Below, in pieces: positions 14,834-41,426 of a DNA stretch of 50,584 nt. Both the position numbers and the translations under genes were made by a program. This DNA comes from Candidatus Eisenbacteria bacterium (GTDB lineage Bacteria > Eisenbacteria > RBG-16-71-46 > SZUA-252). The notes under the pieces are model-generated. The model worked only from the letters and a program-made list of their open reading frames with translations, was not told the DNA's origin and did no database searches. The stretch's first letter is position 1, and every line of letters starts with the position of its first letter. Where the stretch lies: positions 4,128 to 54,711 of the forward strand of contig VBOW01000040.1 in NCBI GenBank assembly GCA_005893275.1. Reading direction: 5' to 3'.

Positions 14834-17419
14834 ATGGCTCTTTCCGCGGGCGCGCGGCTGGGTCCCTACGAGATTCTCGCCCTGCTGGGCGCGGGGGGAA
14901 TGGGCGAGGTCTACCGCGCGCGCGACACACGTTTGGCCCGCTACGTCGCGGTCAAGGTTCTCCCGGGCGCCTACTCGGCGGATCCGGACAGGATGCGCCG
15001 CTTCGAGCACGAGGCTCGCGCCGCGGCCGCCCTCAATCATCCCAACATCGTCGCCGTCTACGACGTCGGTACCCACGACGGCGCCCCCTACGTGGTCTCC
15101 GAGCTGCTGGAGGGGATGACCCTGCGCGAGCGCCTGGCGGGGGGCTCGATTCCGGAACGGAGGACGATCGAATTCGCGCTGGATATCGCGCACGGCCTGG
15201 CCGCGGCCCACGCCAAGGGAATCGCGCATCGCGATTTGAAACCGGAGAACCTCTTCGTCACACGGGACGGCCGGATCAAGATCCTCGATTTCGGTCTCGC
15301 GAAGCTGACCCGTCCCGAGGCGATGGAAGGAAGCCGGAGCAAGGCGCCCACCGTGACCGCAGGCACCGACCCGGGAGTGATTTTCGGCACCGTGGGCTAC
15401 ATGGCGCCCGAACAGGTCCGCGGCGAGCCCGCCGACCACCGCGCCGATCTCTTCGCGCTCGGCGCCATTCTCTACGAAATGCTCTCCGGGAAGAGGCCGT
15501 TCCATCGCGCCACGCCCGTCGAGACGATGAACGCGATCATGAAGGAGGACCCGCCGGATCTCGCGCACGCCGCGCGGCCCGTCTCCCCCGCGCTCGAGCG
15601 AATCGTGATGCATTGTCTCGAGAAGGACCCGGGCGCCCGTTTCCAGTCGGCGCAGGACGTCGCGTTCAATCTGGAGGCCCTCTCCGGGCTCAGGGAGCCG
15701 GGCACGCCCCTCCCCGGAGGGGCGAAACCGCGCCTCGGTCTCAAGCCCCTGGGCGCGGCACTCGCCGTGGCGGCGCTGCTCCTCGCGGCATTCGCCGCCG
15801 GGCGCGCGATCCGGGCAGGGCGCGCCGCGGTACCGGAATATCATCAGCTCACCTTTCGCAAGGGGCCGGTCTTCGGAGCGCGCTTTGCGCCGGATGGAGA
15901 GACCTACGTTTATGCGGCCGCGTGGCAGGGGTCTCCATACAGGATCTACATGGGAAGGCTCGGCTCGCCGGAGTCTCGCGATCTGGGTCTCACGGGGGCG
16001 ACGCTTCTCGCGGTTTCCCCCACCGGGGAAATGGCCCTCTGCCTCGGCGCGCGCCGGGAATCCGGTCTCTTTACGAGAGGCACACTCGCACGGGCGCCTC
16101 TCGCGGGCGGCGCCCCCCGGGAAATGATGGCGGACGTCCTCGGGGCCGACTGGTCGCTGGACGGATCCGCCCTCGCCGTCGTCCGAGAGGTCAAGGGCGC
16201 GTTCCGTCTGGAATACCCGATCGGAACCGTTCTTTTCGAGACAAATGGCAGGCTCACCAACCCGCGCGTTTCCCCGGACGGAGACCGGGTTGCCTTCCTC
16301 TTCCATCCAGCCCGACGCGATGACCGAGGCACGGTCATGGTGGTCGATCGGGCCAAGAAGGCTCGTACGCTCTCCCCGGAGTGGAGCAGCGAGGGAGGGT
16401 TGGCATGGTCGCCCGGGGGCCGGGAGGTGTGGTTCACCGCGGGGCGCGGGGGCATCGAGCGCTCTCTGTACGGGGCCACGCTCTCAGGCAAGGTGCGCGT
16501 CGTGGCCCGGATCCCCGGCGGGATGACGCTCCACGACATTTCGCGCGACGGCCGAGTGCTCCTGGCGTCGGACGACCAGCGGGCGGACATCTACGGTCTC
16601 GTGGCCGGTGACGACAAAGAGCGGGAGCTGACCTGGCTCGATTTCTCGGTTCCTGCCGACATCTCACCGGATGGGAAGACCGTGCTGTTCACGGAGCAGG
16701 GAGCGGCGGCGGGAGACTTGTACACCATATTCGTGAGGGGTATCGATGGTTCCCCTGCGGCCCGACTCGGCGAGGGAGAAGCGCTGGCGTTCTCCCCGGA
16801 CGCGAAGTCCGTCCTCGGGATCCTGTTCACGACGCCGCCCCGGATGGTCCTGCTTCAGGTTGGCGCAGGAGAGGCGAGCCAGCTGCCCAACCCAGGGTTC
16901 GATCGGTATCTAGATCGCCCGCCAGCCTGGACTCGGGACGGCAGGAACATCGTCTTCGGCGCGGGCGAGACAGGTAAGCCTCCGCGTTGTTACGTCCAGA
17001 ACGTGGAGACGGGAGCCACGCATCCAATCACGCCGGAGGGCGTCGGTGAATTTCTACTCTCCCCGTTCGGAGACTCGGCCTACGCAGACGGCGCGGACGG
17101 CAATGTCTACGCTTATCCCCTGGCGGGGGGAAAACCTACCCCGATATCCCCTGCAGGCCTCGATCCCAAGGACCAGTTCATCCGATTCAGCGACGACGGC
17201 CGTTCGGTTTTCCTCTTCCAGGAGGCGGAGCGGAGCGCCAAGCTATTCCGCTTGGACGGCCTCACCCGGCGACGGTTCCTGCTCCGGGAGCTGAAGCCGA
17301 CCGACACCACGGGGCTCCTGAGGGTACGCGACGTGGTGGTCTCCCCCGACGGCCGTTCGATCGTCTTCATGGCGCGCCGCTATCTCTCGCAGCTCTACCT
17401 GGCCGAGGGCTTGCGGTGA
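14834..17419 (+). CDS. Transmembrane Ser/Thr protein kinase with TolB-like beta-propeller
   Basis: 861 residues. Kinase domain at ~10-280: glycine loop [13 protein letters not shown] (19-31), ATP-binding Lys41 in VAVKVL, catalytic loop HRDLKPEN (D134), metal-binding DFG (152-154) and the APE motif in GYMAPEQ. All key residues are present, so it should be active. One membrane helix at ~305-325 ([15 protein letters not shown]) separates it from a C-terminal region of about 520 residues. This region has repeated strand units such as [26 protein letters not shown] and [13 protein letters not shown], typical of PD40/TolB propeller blades, placed outside the membrane. It probably senses an extracytoplasmic cue. 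GTGA overlap with the subtilase gene. Confidence 0.93.
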
Positions 17420-19200
17420 TCCCAAAGCCGTGGCGCTTCACGGCGATCGTCTCGGCGCTCTTAGCACTTCTGGCCCGGCCGGTCGCCGTATCGGCGGAGC
17501 CGGCGAGGGCCGCATCTCCGGTTTGGATCTTCTTCACCGATCTCGGCGCGCTGGGGACGCCGGGCCCTGCGCGTGAGGCGGCGCTCGCCCAGGCCTCCCG
17601 GCGCATCACCCAGCGCGCGGTCGCGCGGCGCGCGAAGGCGGCCCGCGAGCGGCTCGCCTCGGGCGGGGGTGCCGCGGGAATTCCTTCCGCGTCCCAGGCC
17701 CCCCTCGACATCCGCGACCTGCCGCCCGATCCCGCCTATGTCGCTGCCGTCGCCGCCAGGGGCGGGACGATCCGCACCCGTTCGGCCTGGCTTAATGCGG
17801 TGAGCATCGAGGCTCCGGCCGAATCGCTCGATGGGATCCGGAAGCTCCCGTTCGTTGCGGAGATCCGGCCGGTCGCAAGCGAGTCCCGGAATGACGCCGG
17901 CTCGACGCATGCCCCGCATGACGCCGGGTCGGCCGGAGCCCCCGGCACGCCCGACGCCTCCGGCGCCCCAACCGGGCAAGACGCCGAGTTCAACGCGGGG
18001 CCCTCGTACCTCCAGATCGACATGCTTCACGTGCCGGAGGTGCACGCGATGGGGCTCCACGGCGAGGGCGTCCTCGTGTGCGTTCTGGATTCGGGATTCG
18101 AGCTCGACCACGAAGCCCTCCGGCAGCTCGAAGTCCGCGGGCAGCGCGACTTCGTGAACGGCGACGATGACCCTTCCTACGATCCACGCACCGACCAACC
18201 GACCCAGTCGAGCCACGGGACCTCGGTGCTCTCGACGATCGCCGGCTTCGCGCCCGGCAAGCTGATCGGTCCTGCCTATCGCGCCGAATACCTCCTCGGC
18301 AAGACGGAGCGAATCGGCTCGGAACGTCCCATCGAGGAGGACTACTGGTGCGCGGGCGTCGAGTGGGCCGAGGGCCAAGGAGCCGACGTCCTGACCAGCT
18401 CTCTCTCGTACCACGATTGGTACCGCTGGCGCGATCTCGACGGCCGCACCGCCGTGGCCACCCGCGCGGCCAACGTCGCGTTCTCGCGGGGGCTCCTCAT
18501 CGTGAACGCGATCGGGAACCAGGGTCCCGGGGAGGGGAGCGTGGGAGCCCCGGCCGACGCCCCGGGCGCGATCTCGGTCGGCGCCGTCAACGGAATCGGG
18601 GCGGTCGCGGGCTTCAGCTCCGTGGGCCCCACCTACGACGGGCGCGTGAAGCCCGACGTGGTCGCGCCGGGTGTGGCCGTCCTCGCCGTGCGCGCACGCA
18701 CCTATGACGAGTACTCGCGATGGAACGGCACGTCATTCTCGACACCGCTCGTCGCCGGATGCGTGGCGCTCATCATGGAACGGCACCCCGATTGGGGGCC
18801 GGAGATGGTGCGCGACGCGCTCACGATGAGCGCGAGCCGCGCCGAACGGCCGGACAATCGATTCGGCTGGGGCCTCGTGAACGCCCGCGATGCGCTCTTC
18901 TACCCTTTCATCGAGGGGACCATTACCGACGAGACCACCCGCGAGCCGCTCCGGGGGGCGAGCGTGCGATGGGAGCCTTGGGGAAGCGTCGATTCGCTGG
19001 ACGCCGCGGCCAGCGATTCCCCCCCGCGAGGCTCGGTCGAGACCGATTCAACCGGCGCCTATGTCATTCCGAGCCTTCCGCGCGGGTCGTTCAGGATCAC
19101 GATCTCGAAGGCGGGGTACCTCGATGCCGCGGCGGGGCCCTACGAGGTCCCGCCCAACCTCGGCGACGCGAACGTCGCGCTTCGCTACCGGGAGAAGTGA
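17416..19200 (+). CDS. Exported subtilisin-like serine protease (S8) with carboxypeptidase-regulatory-like domain
   Basis: 594 residues from GTG 17416, which overlaps the kinase stop. A signal peptide covers about 1-27. The propeptide region follows up to ~150, then an Ala/Pro/Gly/Asp-rich linker. The catalytic triad is Asp225 ([10 protein letters not shown]), His267 (SSHGTSV) and Ser440 (NGTSFSTPL), and the oxyanion Asn lies in AIGNQGPG. The final ~85 residues ([19 protein letters not shown]…[12 protein letters not shown]) form a CarboxypepD_reg-like beta-sandwich. No C-terminal sorting tag is evident. Coupling to the kinase suggests secretion controlled with, or sensed by, that kinase. The last 16 bases overlap the convergent nucleotidase gene. 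Confidence 0.93.
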
Positions 19201-33257: not shown

Positions 33258-34037
33258 CTAGGGACCTCCCGCGGGCAACGAAAAGTGGAAGTCGGGCACG
33301 AGCTGACGGATCTCGCGAGCCAGCCCGCGCATTTGATCCAGGAGCTTCCGCTCGCCGGTTCGCTTCCATTCCGAGTAGGCATCGAGCAAGAGATCCTGCA
33401 TCTCCCGAAGGGATTGCTCCCTCGCGTCCTCGTCGACCTTGCGCTCGAGCCGAATGACTTGCGCCTTACGGAACCGCTTCGAGACGCTCCAGTACTCGCC
33501 CTTCATATGCGAGAGGAGCTTGTGGTAGCGCTCCAGGCCGAGCGTCAGCTTCTCCAGCACGGCCGCGATCGTTTCAGCCGGATTCTCGAGCAGCTCTCCA
33601 TACGTATACGTGAAGTGATACCAGTTCGGGCTCCGCCCCACGTCCGCTTCCTCGCCGGGGAGCATCCCGTCGCGGCGGCTCGGCACGTTCGGCCCGTGGT
33701 GCTCGAAGATGCCGACGGAAATCAGCAGGAGGTCCTCGGGGGTGCGAAGGATCAGGTATTTGAGGGCCCCGCGATTCGAGTTGGCCAAACGCCGCCAGGC
33801 CCCGATGTCGTACCGCGAGAGAAGCCGCGTGCGCTCCGACGGCAGCGGCACCTGCGCCTCGAACTGGTCGCGCAGCGTGCTCAGGTAAGCGTCCACATCT
33901 TCCTGCGGAAGCGGATCACCGTTCTGCGGCGTGCCCTCCGCTTTCGTGAGGAGGAGGCAGTTCATCGTGAAGTAGAGCGTCGGCTGCAGCTTCCTTTGCC
34001 CAGCTTTGGTTGCGAGATACTTTCGCGCTGCCGACAT
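33258..34037 (-). CDS. Protein of unknown function
   Basis: 259 residues from ATG 34037, chosen for AAGGAG at 34050-34045 seven bases upstream; the open frame continues to 34133 without a ribosome site. I do not recognise the family. It is soluble, with no signal peptide or membrane segment. The N-terminal half contains MSAARKYLATKAGQRKLQPTL and LTKAEGTPQNGDPLPQED; the middle has LKYLILRTPEDLLLISVGIFE and WYHFTYTYGELLENP. The C-terminal ~90 residues are strongly charged helices (RLERKVDEDAREQSLREMQ), perhaps coiled coil. It stands alone, convergent with guaB across a hairpin-rich spacer. The distribution of charges and good codon use argue for a real gene. Confidence 0.75.
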   Translation of the reverse strand: MSAARKYLATKAGQRKLQPTLYFTMNCLLLTKAEGTPQNGDPLPQEDVDAYLSTLRDQFEAQVPLPSERTRLLSRYDIGAWRRLANSNRGALKYLILRTPEDLLLISVGIFEHHGPNVPSRRDGMLPGEEADVGRSPNWYHFTYTYGELLENPAETIAAVLEKLTLGLERYHKLLSHMKGEYWSVSKRFRKAQVIRLERKVDEDAREQSLREMQDLLLDAYSEWKRTGERKLLDQMRGLAREIRQLVPDFHFSLPAGGP

Positions 34038-34441
34038 GGCCCCACTCCTTGATAAGAACGGCATCCATTCCCCGTACCCAGTCTTCTCCACATGCCAATC
34101 CAGTGCATCTGCATCCCCCGTGCCGCCCCGCATGGGCCGCGGCTCCGCGCGGGGCTAACTCGCGCGGCGGTATGGCGATCGACCCAAGTGAGATCTCACG
34201 CGACATCGGCGGCCCTAGTGCCGATTGGTCGCTGTATGGCTTGAAGGAACCGCGGAAAAGGGCGGAAGCACCCACTTCATACGCAATGCCGATAATGCGT
34301 TTTGCTGTTCTACAAGCTTTTTGCAATGAGCGGACGCGGCGCAGGCCGCATGTGGCGAGGAATGGCCTCAGGGAGACGTCGGGGAGGACACCCAATGTGC
34401 GAACGTAGGCAGGCTTGCAGGCAGGAATTGCGGGCCGCCCG
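34038..34441. other. 404-base divergent spacer upstream of the sigma-54 promoter
   Basis: No gene is seen. It holds the leader of the minus-strand unknown gene and a 12-base perfect palindrome GTGAGATCTCAC (34188-34199), about 250 bases upstream of the sigma-54 promoter. That is a plausible but unproven position for an enhancer-binding protein or other regulator. A 6-base hairpin (ATCGGC/GCCGAT, near 34205-34225) follows. The region 34260-34330 is locally more AT-rich. Confidence 0.45.
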
Positions 34442-34457
34442 TGGCACGCTATTTGCG
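34442..34457 (+). promoter_or_regulatory. Sigma-54 (-24/-12) promoter
   Basis: TGGCACG-CTAT-TTGCG. The invariant GG (34443-34444) and GC (34455-34456) are exactly 10 bases apart, and the match to TGGCACG-N4-TTGC is complete. The predicted start near 34468 leaves ~50 bases to the first gene. It needs RpoN and an AAA+ activator, neither of which is in the window. Confidence 0.8.
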
Positions 34458-34519
34458 ATTCATTCCGACTTCGCGATCAGAGCCGCATCGACGCGGCAGC
34501 GAACCGAAGAGGGGTCGAC

Positions 34520-35008
34520 GTGAACATGAACCTCGGCACGAGAGGCGCGCTCACCTTCCGGCTCGGGGACTTCTGCTTTGCCGTCCGTGTCGAGGAGGCG
34601 GGCGGGATTCTCGACGCCGAGCGTCTCGCGCACTTGCCGTGCGTCGCCGAGCCGATCGCGGGGGTCGCCGCGTTTCGCGGCGAAATGGTCCCGGTCGTCG
34701 ACCTCGCCGCCTATCTCGGCATTGAGACCCACGGCCTCCCCGGCCACCGGTACGCGCTCGTGCTCGCGCGCGGGATGGACCGCTTCGCTCTGCTCATTCC
34801 AGAGATCCCAAAGCTCGTTCCCGGCCGGGACCTCCGTGAAGCGCCCGCTTCCGCGGTCGATCCCGAATTGGGCGAGCTCTTCGAGTCGGAGCTGGAGACG
34901 GACCAGGATCACTTCCATTGCCTTAACTACTGGAAGATTTTCGAGACGATGATTCCGCCCGCCGGCGCGGCGGGCCCGGGTCGACCTTCCAGGGAAGGGG
35001 GGAAATAG
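34520..35008 (+). CDS. CheW-like coupling protein
   Basis: 162 residues. A single CheW-like domain: LTFRLGDFCFAVRVEEAGGIL (first strands), LPCVAEPIAGVAAFRGEMVPVVDLAAYLG (the typical 'G…RG…VPV(V/I)DL' core) and RYALVLARG…FALLIPEI. CheW bridges receptors and CheA in chemosensory arrays. The C-terminal ~40 residues (FESELETDQDHFHCLNYWKIF) are a tail. The start is GTG 34520, with AGAGGGG just upstream; ATG 34526 is nearly as likely. It is the first gene after the sigma-54 promoter and lies two bases before the MCP-like gene. Confidence 0.85.
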   Translation: MNMNLGTRGALTFRLGDFCFAVRVEEAGGILDAERLAHLPCVAEPIAGVAAFRGEMVPVVDLAAYLGIETHGLPGHRYALVLARGMDRFALLIPEIPKLVPGRDLREAPASAVDPELGELFESELETDQDHFHCLNYWKIFETMIPPAGAAGPGRPSREGGK

Positions 35009-35010
35009 AG

Positions 35011-36345
35011 ATGCAAGGGCGGAGGGATGAGGACGTTCGCCGCGTGGAGACTCCCAAGCCCCCGGCGGTTCTCATCACGTTCGTCGCGGCCCTCCTGGCC
35101 GGGGCCGCCGGGATCATTCTCTCGGGTCTTGCCGCCTGGGTCTGGGTCGGAGCGATCACCTGCGGGGGGGCATACCTCGCCTCGAAAGCGTCGAGGGGGG
35201 TGAAGAGCGAGGGCCCCATCAAGGCACGACGACTCCTCCTGATGCTCGACCGCGGCGGTTCCACCGAGACCAAGGGCCCCCCGCCCGAGTTCACGGAGGA
35301 GTGGGGGACGCTCTACGACCGCCTGAACAAGATCGCCTCCGAGGCACGCACCAACGCGACCGCGCTGGCCGACTTGGAGCGGTTCCGCCAGCAGGCGGAC
35401 CTCGCCGCATCCATCCTTCGGGACGACAAGGACCCGCTGACCGAGGCGCCCGAGCTGCGCGTGGGACCGCTGCAGTCCCTGCTCGAAAGCGTCAAGAGCG
35501 TGGCCGGGGCCCCGGTCGTGAGCCGCCTCCCCTTCGGCGAGGAGGAGCTGATCGGCGCCGACGGGGAGGGGCTTCCCCCGACGTGGCCCAAATCGGCCCC
35601 CGGGTCGCCGCCGCAAGGATCGGCGATCCCGGGCGAGGTCGAGAATGGGCTCCGGCATCTCGTCCGGGACCTCGAAGGGCTGGCGGCCTCGCTCGCGGGA
35701 GAAGGGCGCAGGCCGTCTGCGCCGGCGGGTGAGAACGCGGATCTGAGGAGTCCCGCCCAGCTCGTCGACGCCGTGGTGCTCACCGCGGCGGACGGGATCG
35801 AGGACCTCGCGGCGGGGCTCATGCGGGCGAACGAGCTTGCTCTGGTCGCCGAGCGCGTGACCAATCGCGCGACCCTGCTCGCGTTGAACGCGGCGCTCGA
35901 GGCGACCCGCTCCGGGAGCGAAGCCTTCGCCGCGATCGCCGAAGAGACCCGGCGACTTGCCGAGTTCGCGCGCGAGGCAACCGACACCATTTCACGCCTG
36001 TCCTCGGAAATCGAGTACAAGGTCGGCGAAACCATCACCGCGATCCATGCGACGAGCGAGGACGCGAAGACCTCCCTGGCCGAGATGTCCGGAGCGGCCA
36101 CGCCCGTCCCGGCCTCGGCGCGAAGTGCGCGCGTCCAAGTCGGGAAACTGCTCGATCGGGCCCACGGGCTCCTGCACAGGCTCGGCGCGTCCCCCCCTCC
36201 CGAGCCGACCGGAGGGGACCCCGCAGCCAATCGGAATTCGGCGCAGGATGTCGTGGAGAACGATCCTCCACCGGCCGACAACTTGCCTGCGGAGGGAATC
36301 TTGCTGATCGAAGGGCTGAAACCCGGGGCCCACCTCGAGAGCTGA
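35011..36345 (+). CDS. Short membrane-anchored MCP-like protein
   Basis: 444 residues. Two membrane helices occupy ~17-60 with almost no external loop between them, so it has no periplasmic sensor domain. A variable, Pro/Gly-rich cytoplasmic stretch (~60-245) follows. The chemoreceptor signalling tip is at ~281-320: ERVTNRATLLALNAALEATRSG then EAFAAIAEETRRLAEFAREATD. It aligns with the conserved NLLALNAAIEAARAGE…FAVVAEEVRKLA hairpin that binds CheW and CheA. The helical arms on either side are much shorter than in ordinary receptors, and no methylation repeats are obvious. The C-terminal ~70 residues are disordered-looking. It probably reads a membrane or cytoplasmic cue. Confidence 0.85.
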   Translation: MQGRRDEDVRRVETPKPPAVLITFVAALLAGAAGIILSGLAAWVWVGAITCGGAYLASKASRGVKSEGPIKARRLLLMLDRGGSTETKGPPPEFTEEWGTLYDRLNKIASEARTNATALADLERFRQQADLAASILRDDKDPLTEAPELRVGPLQSLLESVKSVAGAPVVSRLPFGEEELIGADGEGLPPTWPKSAPGSPPQGSAIPGEVENGLRHLVRDLEGLAASLAGEGRRPSAPAGENADLRSPAQLVDAVVLTAADGIEDLAAGLMRANELALVAERVTNRATLLALNAALEATRSGSEAFAAIAEETRRLAEFAREATDTISRLSSEIEYKVGETITAIHATSEDAKTSLAEMSGAATPVPASARSARVQVGKLLDRAHGLLHRLGASPPPEPTGGDPAANRNSAQDVVENDPPPADNLPAEGILLIEGLKPGAHLES

Positions 36346-36373: not shown

Positions 36374-38047
36374 ATGAGAACCGCCGCGTCCGAATATCTA
36401 AGCCAAACCCAAATCATGTCGCGCCTGGGGGCGACCTTCGGCGCGCTCATCCACGAGCAAGTCGCGGCCGTCCGCCGTTTCCTGGACGACGAGACCAATT
36501 ACGATTCGAGCGAGCTCCTGCCGATCGCCGAGCTGGCCGTACGGCTCGTGGAGCGAAGCGCCGAATGGCTTGAGGTCAGCGAGATCGCGAGTCTCGCCCT
36601 CGAGATGAGGGAAGCGCTGGCGCAATTGGGCCAGCTCCGCCCGACCGACCGCCAGGATGTGATCACCCAGTGCCGCGTCGCGCTGGAGGCCGAGGAGCGC
36701 CTGGTCGACCGGCTGCGGGCCGATGGGTTCACGGCTCTGGTCGACCACGCCGGGATCGTGAGCGATGCCCTGGACGGGCTACGCGCGAATTTGAAGCAGG
36801 CGCGCGCGCAGGAGCTCAACTCGGCGCGCGGCATGATCGACGACGCCACGCCGGATGTCGGCAGCCAGGAAAACCTCCTCGCGCTCACCTTCGAGATCAA
36901 GAACTCGCTCATTCACCAGAATGAACGAATCGGGTCGATGAGCGAGACCGTCGGCGAGGCGTTGGCCGCCGCGCATTCGGCGCTGACGGAGTGGGACACC
37001 GTTCAAAAGGCGGTCGAGCGCCAGCGGATGTCGCCGGGAAAGAAAACGGGCCACGGTCCGAGCCCCTTGGAGGGGAGGTCCCTGACCATCAACCAGCTTC
37101 TGCAAGACACGGCGTCGGGGCTGCGCGCCGTCTCTCACGAGCTGAACCAGCTCCTGGGCCTCCAGTACTCGCTCGAACGAAGGGCGCGGGATCTGGACGA
37201 GCACCTCCTTTGGGAGTTCCTGGATCCCCTCGACCGGTATCTCGACGACATGTACACCGCCGCCCATTGTGGGAGCCGCGGCCAGCGCATGGGCCTTTCG
37301 ATTCAGACCGGAGGGGTCGGTTTCGAGCCCGAGATCGGGGCGATCCTGCTCCCGCTCGTGCTGCGCCTCCTCGAGTCCATGCAGCCCCTGACCGACGCGG
37401 GTGAGACGCTCGAGATTCGGATCACCGCCGCCCGGGAAGGGCTCGAGGCGAGACTCCAGATTGAGGGACCCGTCACGCTCGATCTGGAGCCGGTCCGACT
37501 CCTCGAAAATGCTCTGGAGAGTTTGGGCGGGTTTGCGTCGTTGAACGAGTCCCCCGGCGTGGGGTCCACGCTCAGGCTCCAGTTCCCCATGGCGCGGTCG
37601 CTCCGGAGCTTCCTGATCGTGGAGGCGGGGGGGCAGCGAATCGCGCTCCCGTGGAGCGCGATCGAGCGAATCTATTCGAGCGACGCGGATCCGGCCTGGA
37701 CATCGGCCGCCAACCCCGGTCGGATCTACTCGCTCGCGGCGCTCTTCGGCCGGGATCCCGTCCGGGGGTCCGAGGCGACCCCGCCGACCCAGTCATCGGG
37801 CTCCCGCGCCGCGACGGGCGGCGAGGGGCACCCGCTGGCCGTGCTTCGGTCCGGGAGCGGTTCGGCGGTCGTCAGCTTCGACCGGCTTGTATGGCGCGAG
37901 AACGCCCGGCTGAAGCCCCTTCCTCCGAGGCTCTTTCCCGTCGAGGAGGTCCTCGGAGGCATCATGACCCCCGATTCGGGCATCACGCTCGTGCTGAGTC
38001 CGGGCGCGCTCTTGAAGCGCGCCCGCATGGAAGGCGGGGCCTCGTGA
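36374..38047 (+). CDS. CheA-like protein with apparently inactive kinase (pseudo-CheA)
   Basis: 557 residues, soluble. The C-terminal 150 residues are a CheA-type regulatory (CheW-like) domain: LRSFLIVEAGGQRIALPWSAIERI at ~410-432. It is directly preceded by the end of a histidine-kinase ATPase domain (LESLGGFASLNESPGVGSTLRLQFPMA, G2 box and last strand), so the CheA architecture is clear. Earlier elements are eroded: where CheA has the N-box (LxxNAxDHG) this has LLPLVLRLLESMQPL (~325-339), and the G1 box DxGxG is EGPVTLD. The N-terminal helices (~50-115) resemble an HPt domain with Arg57 where the phospho-His should be. By eye it can neither bind ATP normally nor accept phosphate. The stop overlaps the next gene's GTG. 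Confidence 0.78.
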   Translation: MRTAASEYLSQTQIMSRLGATFGALIHEQVAAVRRFLDDETNYDSSELLPIAELAVRLVERSAEWLEVSEIASLALEMREALAQLGQLRPTDRQDVITQCRVALEAEERLVDRLRADGFTALVDHAGIVSDALDGLRANLKQARAQELNSARGMIDDATPDVGSQENLLALTFEIKNSLIHQNERIGSMSETVGEALAAAHSALTEWDTVQKAVERQRMSPGKKTGHGPSPLEGRSLTINQLLQDTASGLRAVSHELNQLLGLQYSLERRARDLDEHLLWEFLDPLDRYLDDMYTAAHCGSRGQRMGLSIQTGGVGFEPEIGAILLPLVLRLLESMQPLTDAGETLEIRITAAREGLEARLQIEGPVTLDLEPVRLLENALESLGGFASLNESPGVGSTLRLQFPMARSLRSFLIVEAGGQRIALPWSAIERIYSSDADPAWTSAANPGRIYSLAALFGRDPVRGSEATPPTQSSGSRAATGGEGHPLAVLRSGSGSAVVSFDRLVWRENARLKPLPPRLFPVEEVLGGIMTPDSGITLVLSPGALLKRARMEGGAS

Positions 38048-39762
38048 GAGCGCTCCAGATCGAGCGCGTCGGTCCGCGCGAGGATTTCCACTTCGCGCTC
38101 CGGGGAGTCGTCGATGCCGAAGGGGCGCGCTCCATCGACCGGCTCCTCCTGAATTGCCAGGGACGAAGCGCGCCGCGCGTCCGGCTCGACTTCACACATG
38201 TCGAGAGCATCTCGAGCCTCGGCATCTCGGTCTTGAGCCGGTGGGGGCGCGTCTACGAAAAGACCGAGCGACGAATCGAGCTGAACGGCCTGGCCCCCGA
38301 GGTCCGGGCGACGCTTCATCAATCCGAGGCGATCGTCTACCTCGCGAACGCGCGCCCGTCGGCTCCCGCGCCGGCGCCCGATGCCCGCCGCGTGGACGTC
38401 CCCGAGGCCGTGCTCGAGCCGGTCCCGGTGAGGCCCTACCTCGCCCCGCCGGTGGACCCTCCCGCGGGTCCCGAGCTGGCTTCGCTCCAATCGAAGCTCA
38501 AGCGAAAGATCGTCGAGTTCCGAAACCTGTTCGAGATCACCCAGGCGCTCAACCTCGCGCAGGACCTGGACGAGGTCCTGAACCTCTTCGGCTTGAGCGT
38601 CATGGGTCAGTTCGGACTGGAGCGCCTCGCGCTTTTCCTGAGCGATCCCGACAGGAACGGGGATTTGGTTCCTCGTCACGTGCGCGGGTTCGCGCAGAAC
38701 CATTTTCAGGATTTCTCCGTCCCGTGGACCGCGTTTCGAAAGTTCGCTCCCGATCGCTCGTTCGTGACCCTCCACGACATGGAGGGCAAGCAGAACGGCG
38801 CGGAAGAGATCGAAGCGCTTCGGGAATCGGGATTCGAATGGGGAATCCTGCTCTGGGTGCGTCGCGATCTCGAGGGCGTGCTCTTCCTGGGAGGCCGCGG
38901 CAGCAGGAAGAGGTTCGAGGAGGACGAGCGCGACCTCCTGACCATTCTTTCCCACCAGGGAGCCGTGGCGATTTCAAACGCAAGGGTCCAGCGGGCCCAG
39001 GAGGAGCGAAATCTCGGGCTCGTGCGGGGGATGATGGCGCTGATCGAGAGCCGCGACGGATACGCGAAGGGCAGCACCGAGCGCGTCGTCCGGTACGTGA
39101 GCGCGGTGGCGCGGCTCCTGGATTATCCGAAGGAGTACTTGAAATCGCTCGTGTACGGGGCGGTGCTCCGCGATATCGGGATGATCACCGTGAGCGGGCT
39201 TATCTTGAAAAACCCCGCGCACCTGTCGGAAGAGGAATGGGCGCTCATCAAGCAGCATCCGCTTCGCGGGGCCCAGATCCTCGAGGAGATGAACTTCCCC
39301 AAGGAAGTGATCGCGATCGTCTTGAATCATCACGAGCGCTGGGGAGGGGAAGGATACCCGAACGGTATTCGCGGCCAGGACATTCCGCTCGGCGCGCGCA
39401 TCGTGTCGCTTGTGGACGCCTACGTCGCGATGACGAGCGAGCGGCCCTATCGGCGGGCGCTCCCCTATGAGAAGGCCCGGCAGGTGATCGCGGAGAACTG
39501 GGGAAGCCCCTTCGACCCGAGCGTCATCGAAGTGTTCCTGACCGTCCTCGACAAGATCGAACGCCGTACCCGCCTCAAGGCGGGCCAACCGCTGGCCGAA
39601 GTGACCGGGACCGGCACGGACGCCGGACCGACGTCCGCCGGCGACTCGGTCCTGGACCCGCTCTCCTCGGGCGCGACGATTCCGCCTGAGAAGGACTCCG
39701 CATCCGACGCCGCCGCGGGAACCGGGTCCGGACCCACGATGGAGGCGGGAAGGCGCCGATGA
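38044..39762 (+). CDS. STAS-GAF-HD-GYP protein with degenerate metal site
   Basis: 572 residues from GTG 38044 (GTGA overlap). Residues ~1-100 are a STAS/anti-sigma-antagonist-like domain (PRVRLDFTHVESISSLGISVLSRW). A Pro-rich linker (~103-142) leads to a short coiled segment and a GAF domain (~165-315). The HD-GYP domain runs ~325-510. HD-GYP enzymes hydrolyse cyclic di-GMP using a metal site. Here GAVLRDIGM (374-380) replaces the usual LHDIGK, losing the HD His and the Lys, and STERV (344-348) replaces HTERV. The GYP motif HHERWGGEGYP (429-439) is kept. It is therefore probably a binding or signalling module, not an active phosphodiesterase. It overlaps the next gene by ATGA. Confidence 0.88.
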   Translation: MRALQIERVGPREDFHFALRGVVDAEGARSIDRLLLNCQGRSAPRVRLDFTHVESISSLGISVLSRWGRVYEKTERRIELNGLAPEVRATLHQSEAIVYLANARPSAPAPAPDARRVDVPEAVLEPVPVRPYLAPPVDPPAGPELASLQSKLKRKIVEFRNLFEITQALNLAQDLDEVLNLFGLSVMGQFGLERLALFLSDPDRNGDLVPRHVRGFAQNHFQDFSVPWTAFRKFAPDRSFVTLHDMEGKQNGAEEIEALRESGFEWGILLWVRRDLEGVLFLGGRGSRKRFEEDERDLLTILSHQGAVAISNARVQRAQEERNLGLVRGMMALIESRDGYAKGSTERVVRYVSAVARLLDYPKEYLKSLVYGAVLRDIGMITVSGLILKNPAHLSEEEWALIKQHPLRGAQILEEMNFPKEVIAIVLNHHERWGGEGYPNGIRGQDIPLGARIVSLVDAYVAMTSERPYRRALPYEKARQVIAENWGSPFDPSVIEVFLTVLDKIERRTRLKAGQPLAEVTGTGTDAGPTSAGDSVLDPLSSGATIPPEKDSASDAAAGTGSGPTMEAGRRR

Positions 39763-41426
39763 CCCCCGAGAGCTTGAAGCCGGCCCTGGAGGCGCGCGAA
39801 GGCAAGCAGAAGCGAACGATCCTCGTCGTCGACGATGACCGGCGCGTCGTGGATCTCCTGCAAATCTCCCTGTCGCAGAACGGCTACCAGGTCACGACCG
39901 CTTCGACCGGCGAGGAAGCGCTCGAGGCCGTGCGCCGGGAGATACCGGATCTGATCATTCTCGACTTGAGGCTCCCCAAGAAGAACGGGTACGAGGTCTG
40001 CGCGGCGCTGAAGAGCTCGAAGGAGACCGTCGCGGTCCCGGTCATCATGGTCTCCGCGACCGCGGAGGTCGACGCGCGCCTCCAGGGCCTCATGCACGGC
40101 GCGGACGATTACCTGACGAAGCCGTTTTCGCCGAAAGAGCTTCTGATCAAGGTGCGCCGCATTTTCGAGAGGATGGAGAAAACCGAGGTCCTGAGCGTCA
40201 AGAACCGGGAGCTCGAGACCGAGGTGGCTCGGAACCGCGAGGACCTGGTGGTTCGCAACAAGGAGCTCCGGTTCCAGGTGTTCAGCCTCGAGACCCTGAT
40301 GGGTCTTACCCACCAGCTCAATTCCTCCCTCGATCTCGATTCGCTCATGGGGACCGTCATTCTGAGCGTCGTGGGCCAGCTTCGCGTGAACTCCGCCTGC
40401 CTGTTCCTCACCGACTCGCGCGAGAACCCGAAGCGGCTGGATGCCTGGACGTTCAAGGGCGTTAAGGAGGATCTGGTTCGTTCCATCACGTTCCGCTACG
40501 AGGATGATTTTGTCCAGGCGATCCGGCCGGTCGAAGGCGAGGAAGCGCGGCCGATCCGGCTGCAAGACCTGTCGGAGGATCCCTCCCTCGAGCGCGACGT
40601 GGGACCTCTCTACGCCGCCGGGTTCACGCTCGTGTGCCCGGTCGTGATGAAGCAGAAGCTCACCGCCATCCTCGCCGTCGGCGAAAAGGTGAGCGGGCAG
40701 GACTTTCAATCCACCGACCTCGAGATGGTGAAGGCTCTGTCCGAGTCGGCGGGCATCGCGATCGAGAACGCGCGGCTGTTCAAGGATCTTCAGGACACCT
40801 ATCTCGCCACCGTGCGCGTGCTGGTCTCCACGATCGAGGCCAAGGATCCATACACGCACGGGCACACGGAGCGCGTGGCGCAGTACGCGGTCGGGATCGC
40901 GAAGGCGATGGGGTTCAGCTCGGACGAGATCCAGACGATCCAGCTGGGCGCGATCCTTCACGACATCGGCAAGCTCCACACGAGCGACTCGATCCTGCAT
41001 AAACCCGGAGCGCTCACGGACGAAGAGTGGCGCCTCGTCAAGGCACATCCCGTTCGCGGCGCGCAAATGCTTCAAGGCGTGAAGTTCCTCGAGAAGGCTA
41101 CCGACCTGGTCCGCCACCATCACGAGCGGGTGGACGGAAAGGGCTACCCCGACGGGCTGAGCGGTGACGAAATCACGATCGGGGCGAAGATCGTGAACGT
41201 GGCGGATGCGTTCGACGCGATGACAACGGAGCGCCCGTATCGCTCCGGCCTCAGCGTCGATCAGGCGGTCGCTCAGCTGCAGGAGAAGGCCGGCACCCAG
41301 TTCGCCGCCGAAGTGGTCGAGGTGTTCGTGGGGGCGCTCCGCGACGGGAGCATTCAGCTGATCCGGAACACCCGCGCTTTCGACGACTCGGCCAGGGCGA
41401 CCATCTCCGGCGACCGCGGACGCTAG
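39759..41426 (+). CDS. Response regulator with receiver, GAF and active-type HD-GYP domains
   Basis: 555 residues. Receiver domain ~18-135: acidic pair DDD (25-27), phospho-acceptor Asp69 (IILDLRLP), and Lys121 (YLTKPF), all intact. A coiled segment (~140-175) precedes a GAF domain (~180-340). HD-GYP ~350-540: HTERV (His369), LHDIGK (400-405), HPVRG, and HHERVDGKGYPDG (454-466) form a full metal and GYP set, so it should hydrolyse cyclic di-GMP. It is the only protein of the operon with all phosphorelay residues. No cognate intact kinase is encoded nearby. Last gene of the operon. Confidence 0.93.
   Translation: MTPESLKPALEAREGKQKRTILVVDDDRRVVDLLQISLSQNGYQVTTASTGEEALEAVRREIPDLIILDLRLPKKNGYEVCAALKSSKETVAVPVIMVSATAEVDARLQGLMHGADDYLTKPFSPKELLIKVRRIFERMEKTEVLSVKNRELETEVARNREDLVVRNKELRFQVFSLETLMGLTHQLNSSLDLDSLMGTVILSVVGQLRVNSACLFLTDSRENPKRLDAWTFKGVKEDLVRSITFRYEDDFVQAIRPVEGEEARPIRLQDLSEDPSLERDVGPLYAAGFTLVCPVVMKQKLTAILAVGEKVSGQDFQSTDLEMVKALSESAGIAIENARLFKDLQDTYLATVRVLVSTIEAKDPYTHGHTERVAQYAVGIAKAMGFSSDEIQTIQLGAILHDIGKLHTSDSILHKPGALTDEEWRLVKAHPVRGAQMLQGVKFLEKATDLVRHHHERVDGKGYPDGLSGDEITIGAKIVNVADAFDAMTTERPYRSGLSVDQAVAQLQEKAGTQFAAEVVEVFVGALRDGSIQLIRNTRAFDDSARATISGDRGR

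Follow-up and report, generated by a model that had tools for sequence, protein, structure and literature searches.

Can a homologue of the chemotaxis kinase CheA remain of use to a cell that has lost both of its catalytic sites? This question is raised by a gene of Candidatus Eisenbacteria located in the window, i.e. the whole stretch of 50,584 nucleotides that was analysed, for which a preliminary description had proposed a pseudokinase with an open frame of 557 codons. The frame is indeed open, starts with ATG, encodes 557 aa with a GC3 of 0.85 and overlaps the next gene by four bases (GTGA at 38044). Its product is a conserved CheA homologue under selection without either catalytic site, and it is co-encoded with a CheW, an MCP and two HD-GYP proteins, one dead and one with intact motifs. 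The operon and the domains of the protein, termed pseudo-CheA in the following, are:

34415-35008, + strand: CheW (PF01584, E 1.2e-12; sole PF01584 match in the genome)
35011-36345, + strand: short membrane-anchored MCP-like protein (PF00015, E 2.9e-9; sole MCP in the genome)
36374-38047, + strand: pseudo-CheA, 557 aa, P1*-P3-P4*-P5 (model, alignments, profiles, tree, dN/dS)
36404-36823, + strand: P1*, five-helix Hpt-like bundle, residues 11-150, with an invariant Arg57 replacing the phospho-accepting His (profile alignment, model)
36863-37219, + strand: P3-like dimerisation hairpin, residues 164-282 (model; Foldseek matches to CheA P3-P4-P5 and P3P4 structures)
37229-37588, + strand: P4*, GHKL-type relic, residues 286-405, N-box helix without Asn, G1, ATP lid and G2 deleted (alignment, model, Foldseek)
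37601-38044, + strand: P5, CheW-like regulatory domain, residues 410-557, with diagnostic ALPW and DR[IL]VWRE motifs (profile comparison, tree)
38044-39762, + strand: STAS-GAF-HD-GYP protein with the degenerate motifs GSTER, RDIGM and HHERWGGEGYP (Pfam scan; motifs of the orthologues)
39759-41426, + strand: REC-GAF-HD-GYP protein with intact receiver and HD-GYP motifs GHTER, HDIGK and HHERVDGKGYP (PF00072, 1.4e-29; PF13487, 4.5e-40)

Domain structure and loss of the catalytic sites

A Pfam scan of pseudo-CheA returned no significant domain, and the Hpt, H-kinase_dim and HATPase_c profiles found nothing at E<=1 in the protein and nothing at E<=0.1 in any orthologue. The only CheA match in a phmmer search of the PDB was sub-threshold (E 0.075) and ran from the end of P4 into the first part of P5, so that sequence alone was insufficient for identification. 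Whole-length hhalign, working on shallow alignments, misplaced the N-box, and domain-wise alignment was used instead together with a structure model. The AlphaFold2 model, which was built on the nine orthologues described below (mean pLDDT 73, pTM 0.50), begins with a helical bundle, continues through a long helical hairpin and a GHKL-like core of alpha-beta type, and ends in a beta domain; its eight top Foldseek matches in the PDB are all CheA (E 4e-16 to 6e-12). The P3 region corresponds to the long hairpin and is covered by the Foldseek alignments to CheA P3-P4-P5, with no match of the H-kinase_dim profile. As modelled, pseudo-CheA is a full-length CheA homologue devoid of P2.

Compared with the profile of nine true CheAs from the phylum, P5 gave an E-value of 8.5e-8 and the last part of P4 one of 5e-4. 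The segment EAGGQRIALPWSAIERI, which had initially been read as a CheA-like regulatory domain, lies inside this P5 domain, and PF01584 is matched weakly by six of the nine orthologues (best 4.5e-4). In a tree of P5 and CheW domains pseudo-CheA is located on the CheA-P5 side, split from CheW with a support of 100/99, although some branches are long. The protein thus carries the CheW-like P5 domain of CheA.

The preliminary description had located an Arg at the His position of the HPt-like helices. In the almost gapless profile alignment, which is weak when taken alone (E 0.14), Arg57 stands opposite the Hpt His, and it is invariant in all nine orthologues, this one counted. A separate model of residues 1-151 (mean pLDDT 81) is a five-helix bundle with Arg57 in its second helix. 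The natural proteins that match this bundle best are for the most part CheA P1 domains, including those of Thermotoga (TM 0.74 by target), Salmonella and Rhodobacter; the E-values of at least 0.13 are not significant, which is common for helical bundles. With a weak sequence match (E 0.14) and a fold match of a kind that helical bundles reach easily (Foldseek E 0.13), the P1* assignment is only suggestive. A substitute His elsewhere in the bundle would have spoken against the proposed loss; none is invariant there or anywhere else in the protein among the nine orthologues, and H125, situated in the bundle's last helix, occurs in seven of them.

In P4, the losses concern the nucleotide-binding site. 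The N-box segment LLPLVLRLLESMQPL, described as devoid of its Asn, forms the helix 319-335 of the model, and the Asn position corresponds to E334, which is Glu in eight orthologues and Gly in one, so that the Asn is absent from all nine. The lack of DxGxG in the G1 box was likewise confirmed by an invariant Gly365 in place of the Asp. The true CheA of a relative (G004) has about 60 residues between G1 and the helix after G2 versus about 11 in pseudo-CheA, indicating that the lid, the F-box and G2 were deleted; in total, the deletion in P4* comprises about 50 residues (G1 region, ATP lid/F-box, G2). One claim has to be corrected: SPGVGSTLRLQFP, previously taken for the G2 region, is an unconserved strand after G2. 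In the alignment, SPGVGSTL pairs with the later SxxGxGTT strand, without conservation among the orthologues; the G2 motif reads SGRGVGMD in the true CheAs of the relatives and was deleted together with the ATP lid in pseudo-CheA. Model and alignment contain no Asn or DxGxG at shifted positions, which argues against an ordinary ATP pocket with displaced residues. The phospho-accepting His, the N-box Asn, G1, G2 and the ATP lid are all missing, and loss of kinase function is well supported by the alignments and the predicted structure.

Conservation in genomes with and without CheA

Orthologues of pseudo-CheA without internal stops are present in all nine genomes (this one included) of its taxonomic family, which is designated f1 and comprises four genera. 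Pairwise dN/dS of the whole gene ranges from 0.095 to 0.28 (0.095, 0.164 and 0.181 for three congeners), and by domain from 0.06 to 0.29, with 0.06-0.18 in P1* and P4* and up to 0.29 in P5; the neighbouring IMPDH gene, used for comparison, shows 0.06-0.08. Arg57, W65, G365, LERRARDLDE and residues of QFPMAR are invariant, and LERRARDLDEHLLWEFLDPLDR around the P3-P4 junction is nearly so. The losses are accordingly fixed in nine genomes and four genera, with purifying selection acting on the relic domains too, in support of the earlier view of a pseudokinase and not of decay. With its predicted fold retained, its catalytic residues lost, and both conservation and purifying selection documented, the protein is to be classified as a putative pseudokinase derived from CheA. 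The orthologue of genome G007 (L061:12011-13501) lacks about 60 residues, most of them from the P3-like hairpin, with the remainder kept.

The genome is 99.65% complete, the Hpt profile has no match in it, and the CheW and MCP profiles have one match each, both in the pseudo-CheA operon, from which it follows that there is no other CheA. Three congeners as well as G007 and G008 show the same picture: no Hpt was found, and the CheW and MCP of the operon are the only ones; the Hpt profile had no match in G000 (this genome) to G003, G007 and G008, nor in the three genomes of taxonomic family f6. In G004, G005 and G006 a true CheA is encoded about 10 kb from the pseudo-CheA operon, in G004 inside a complete che operon (CheA, CheW, MCP, CheY, CheB, CheR). 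The retention of the operon in genomes without CheA shows that it is independent of a surviving CheA.

These genomes bear on the possibility that pseudo-CheA is a dominant modulator of genuine CheA via mixed arrays or heterodimers. The proximity of a true CheA in G004, G005 and G006 would suit such a role, but the operon was kept in six of the nine f1 genomes, the present one among them, and in each of the three f6 genomes, although the lack of an Hpt means that none of these encodes a complete CheA. As a general role this explanation is refuted; it can hold only where CheA survives, and we consider it quite unlikely.

The operon and its reduced relatives in the phylum

The order CheW, short MCP, pseudo-CheA, STAS-GAF-HD-GYP and REC-GAF-HD-GYP is kept in all nine f1 genomes within the limits of the contigs, and the operon typically lies between the IMPDH and ATP synthase genes. 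The true start of CheW probably lies near 34520. In the MCP-like protein two hydrophobic segments lie close together, no sensor domain was found, and the hairpin tip LALNAALEATRSGS is conserved in the orthologues. Compared with the usual GRGF region this tip is shorter by about two residues, and the MCP gene of G006 (L060:5207-6431) appears split over two frames by a frameshift or a sequencing error. CheR-domain proteins are encoded elsewhere in this genome, and methylation may therefore occur.

In all nine genomes the STAS-GAF-HD-GYP protein has lost signature residues from each motif, namely His from GHxxR, both His and Lys from HDxGK, and Asp from HHExxDGxGYP, the motifs of the orthologues reading G[S/N/T/G]TER, RDIGM and HHERWGGEGYP. 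The phosphodiesterase signature (GHxxR, HDxGK, HHExxDGxGYP) is thus absent, and the protein is, to judge from its motifs, a second conserved pseudo-enzyme, a putative pseudo-phosphodiesterase beside an intact one. In the REC-GAF-HD-GYP protein the phosphorylation residues of the receiver are intact, which suggests that some other kinase probably phosphorylates it.

A divergent gene upstream of the operon (33258-34133) has no Pfam or NCBIfam match. Orthologues with 72-91% identity are located beside the operon in eight other f1 genomes, and similar proteins adjoin it in f6, f8 and f11; the product is a possible functional partner of the operon.

A P5 profile built from diverse members of the pseudo-CheA family was used to search 47 genomes of the phylum and detected the family in 29 of them, namely all nine of f1, all three of f6 and 17 of the 20 of f8. 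A restriction to one taxonomic family is therefore rejected. P5 is the domain common to all members found, and all 20 P5 domains that were tested group in a single clade (100/98), making one origin before the split of f1, f6 and f8 likely. A P5-profile match in G026 was rejected as a family member, because it is an ordinary CheA; the operon copy of G026 itself has no recognisable P5. Among about 340 sampled genomes outside the phylum the P5 matches were weaker (best 4.9e-13) and mostly located in frames of ordinary CheA size.

The members of the three taxonomic families form a graded series from P1*-P3-P4*-P5 to P5 alone, which reveals the contacts that were given up last. The f8 proteins combine helices resembling P1* with a P4* relic and P5, to which complete copies add a receiver domain; no P3 is recognisable, and N-box, G1 and G2 were absent from the sequences read. 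Where read, their genes lie directly upstream of a REC-GAF gene. In f6 there is just a P5-like protein of 154-172 aa, still located between the MCP and REC-GAF-HD-GYP genes, suggesting that P5, the putative array contact, was the last part to disappear in this taxonomic family. The REC-GAF protein lacks HD-GYP motifs in its C-terminal part in two f8 genomes (L098:5499-6983, L097:7806-9290), so that c-di-GMP hydrolysis is excluded as an output shared by all members of the family. Only in the taxonomic families whose REC-GAF-HD-GYP protein is intact (f1, f6) does the link to c-di-GMP hold.

Beyond the ORF itself, the locus is of interest mainly because a chemosensory-type operon has been conserved in genomes that no longer contain a CheA-type histidine kinase. 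The preliminary description did not reveal that there is no CheA to modulate, that the neighbouring HD-GYP protein is dead and that the family is present throughout the phylum in progressively reduced forms. In a survey of thousands of CheAs, P1, P3, P4 and P5 were the core of all, with a kinase domain in every homologue (PMC10782961). The pseudo-CheA family, which lacks either catalytic site, contrasts with this view of the kinase domain as universal and defining for CheA. Its presence in 29 of 47 genomes, nine of which encode no Hpt protein and therefore cannot have a complete CheA, indicates that a receptor-CheW-P5 assembly is selectable apart from phosphotransfer, and array function without a kinase becomes a directly testable question.

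A putative phosphotransfer-free scaffold

We regard it as probable that pseudo-CheA acts without phosphotransfer as the scaffold of a receptor-CheW-like complex that is wired to the co-encoded c-di-GMP phosphodiesterase, the output step being the part that we infer. The protein would dimerise through P3, and its P5 would join CheW and the MCP tip in a membrane-bound, core-unit-like complex that does not autophosphorylate. The relic P1* and P4* domains may serve as protein-docking surfaces, whose likeliest partner would be the receiver of the REC-GAF-HD-GYP protein; this receiver is the best docking candidate because the f8 members are fused to one. Inputs via MCP, GAF, STAS or receiver domains could then set c-di-GMP hydrolysis, or its location, by protein contacts instead of phosphotransfer. 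The likeliest end output would be type IV pili or another surface behaviour, since PilT-family proteins are present in all 47 genomes of the phylum and the flagellar motor protein FliG is absent from the f1 and f6 genomes. Only tentatively do we go as far as to propose that a non-flagellated lineage uses an array-like complex of receptor, CheW and dead CheA, with a core unit free of histidine kinases, for contact signalling to a c-di-GMP phosphodiesterase and its dead paralogue. More generally, the findings suggest that soil Candidatus Eisenbacteria have a chemoreceptor-type complex that signals without a kinase.

Precedents support each step of this mechanism separately, and no single one combines all features; literature searches for CheA pseudokinases, CheA with HD-GYP, chemotaxis in Eisenbacteria and CheA-less systems returned nothing matching. 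Genuine CheA shares with pseudo-CheA the domain order P1-P3-P4-P5, the P5 clade and the genomic company of CheW and MCP, whereas the latter lacks the phospho-accepting His, the N-box Asn, G1, lid, G2 and P2. CheA3 of Rhodobacter (Cereibacter) sphaeroides has a degenerate, helix-lacking P4 and an intact P5 (PMC10782961); it retains the phosphorylated P1 His, and its partner is the active CheA4 of the same operon (PMC10782961, PMC6829392). The degenerate P4 and the P5 are common to CheA3 and pseudo-CheA, but the latter has neither the P1 His nor an active partner. It also does not correspond to a split CheA of this type, given that the His is lacking and neither an Hpt nor a second CheW-domain protein was detected in the genome. 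DivL, a pseudo-histidine kinase of Caulobacter, uses its dead kinase core as a docking sensor that reads a phosphorylated receiver (PMC4211667). Reuse of a kinase core without kinase activity is the common element, and receiver docking by pseudo-CheA is conceivable on this model; DivL is of the PAS-containing sensor-kinase type, whereas pseudo-CheA is of the CheA type, carries a P5 and is encoded beside a receptor and CheW. The receiver-HD-GYP phosphodiesterases of the RpfG/NosR type resemble the product of 39759-41426 with its REC, GAF and intact HD-GYP motifs, but differ in that the latter is accompanied by a motif-dead STAS-GAF-HD-GYP protein and a kinase-less chemosensory-type module.

Among the alternatives, the one that survives best is a ParP-type array-localisation factor, composed of a P5-like domain and tethering domains and devoid of a signalling role. 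P5 is sufficient to recruit CheA to arrays, and arrays form without CheA given ParP (PMC5706961). This Vibrio protein is not a kinase and enters receptor arrays with its P5-like AIF domain, promoting their formation (PMC5706961), as proposed for pseudo-CheA, and the presence of P5 in all members found fits such a function. However, the other part of ParP binds the pole anchor ParC, and ParP works beside a true CheA, with no CheA-derived P3/P4 relics described, whereas the rest of pseudo-CheA is CheA-derived (P3, P4*). The operon moreover encodes signalling proteins, and no ParC-like positioning ATPase was recognised among the neighbours scanned. We consider a pure localisation factor unlikely, though less so than the modulator of genuine CheA discussed above.

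Unusual activities have been found in other pseudokinases, and the conserved and strongly constrained P4* might point to a relic kinase with an unconventional catalytic or nucleotide-binding activity. The deletion of the nucleotide-pocket lid, G1 and G2 goes beyond mere substitution, and f6 lost P4* entirely while the operon was kept, making this activity very improbable. A decaying gene with an accidentally open frame, for which the shrinking series from 557 aa with P3 and P4* through P4* without P3 to P5 only could be cited, is refuted by dN/dS values well below 1 in the whole gene and in P1*/P4*, the conserved motifs with their invariant residues and the lack of internal stops, and its probability is negligible. 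The scaffold reading is thus the one that we prefer. Elsewhere in the window, a gene for a Ser/Thr protein kinase with PD40 repeats (14834-17419) adjoins one for a subtilase with a carboxypeptidase-regulatory-like domain (17416-19200).
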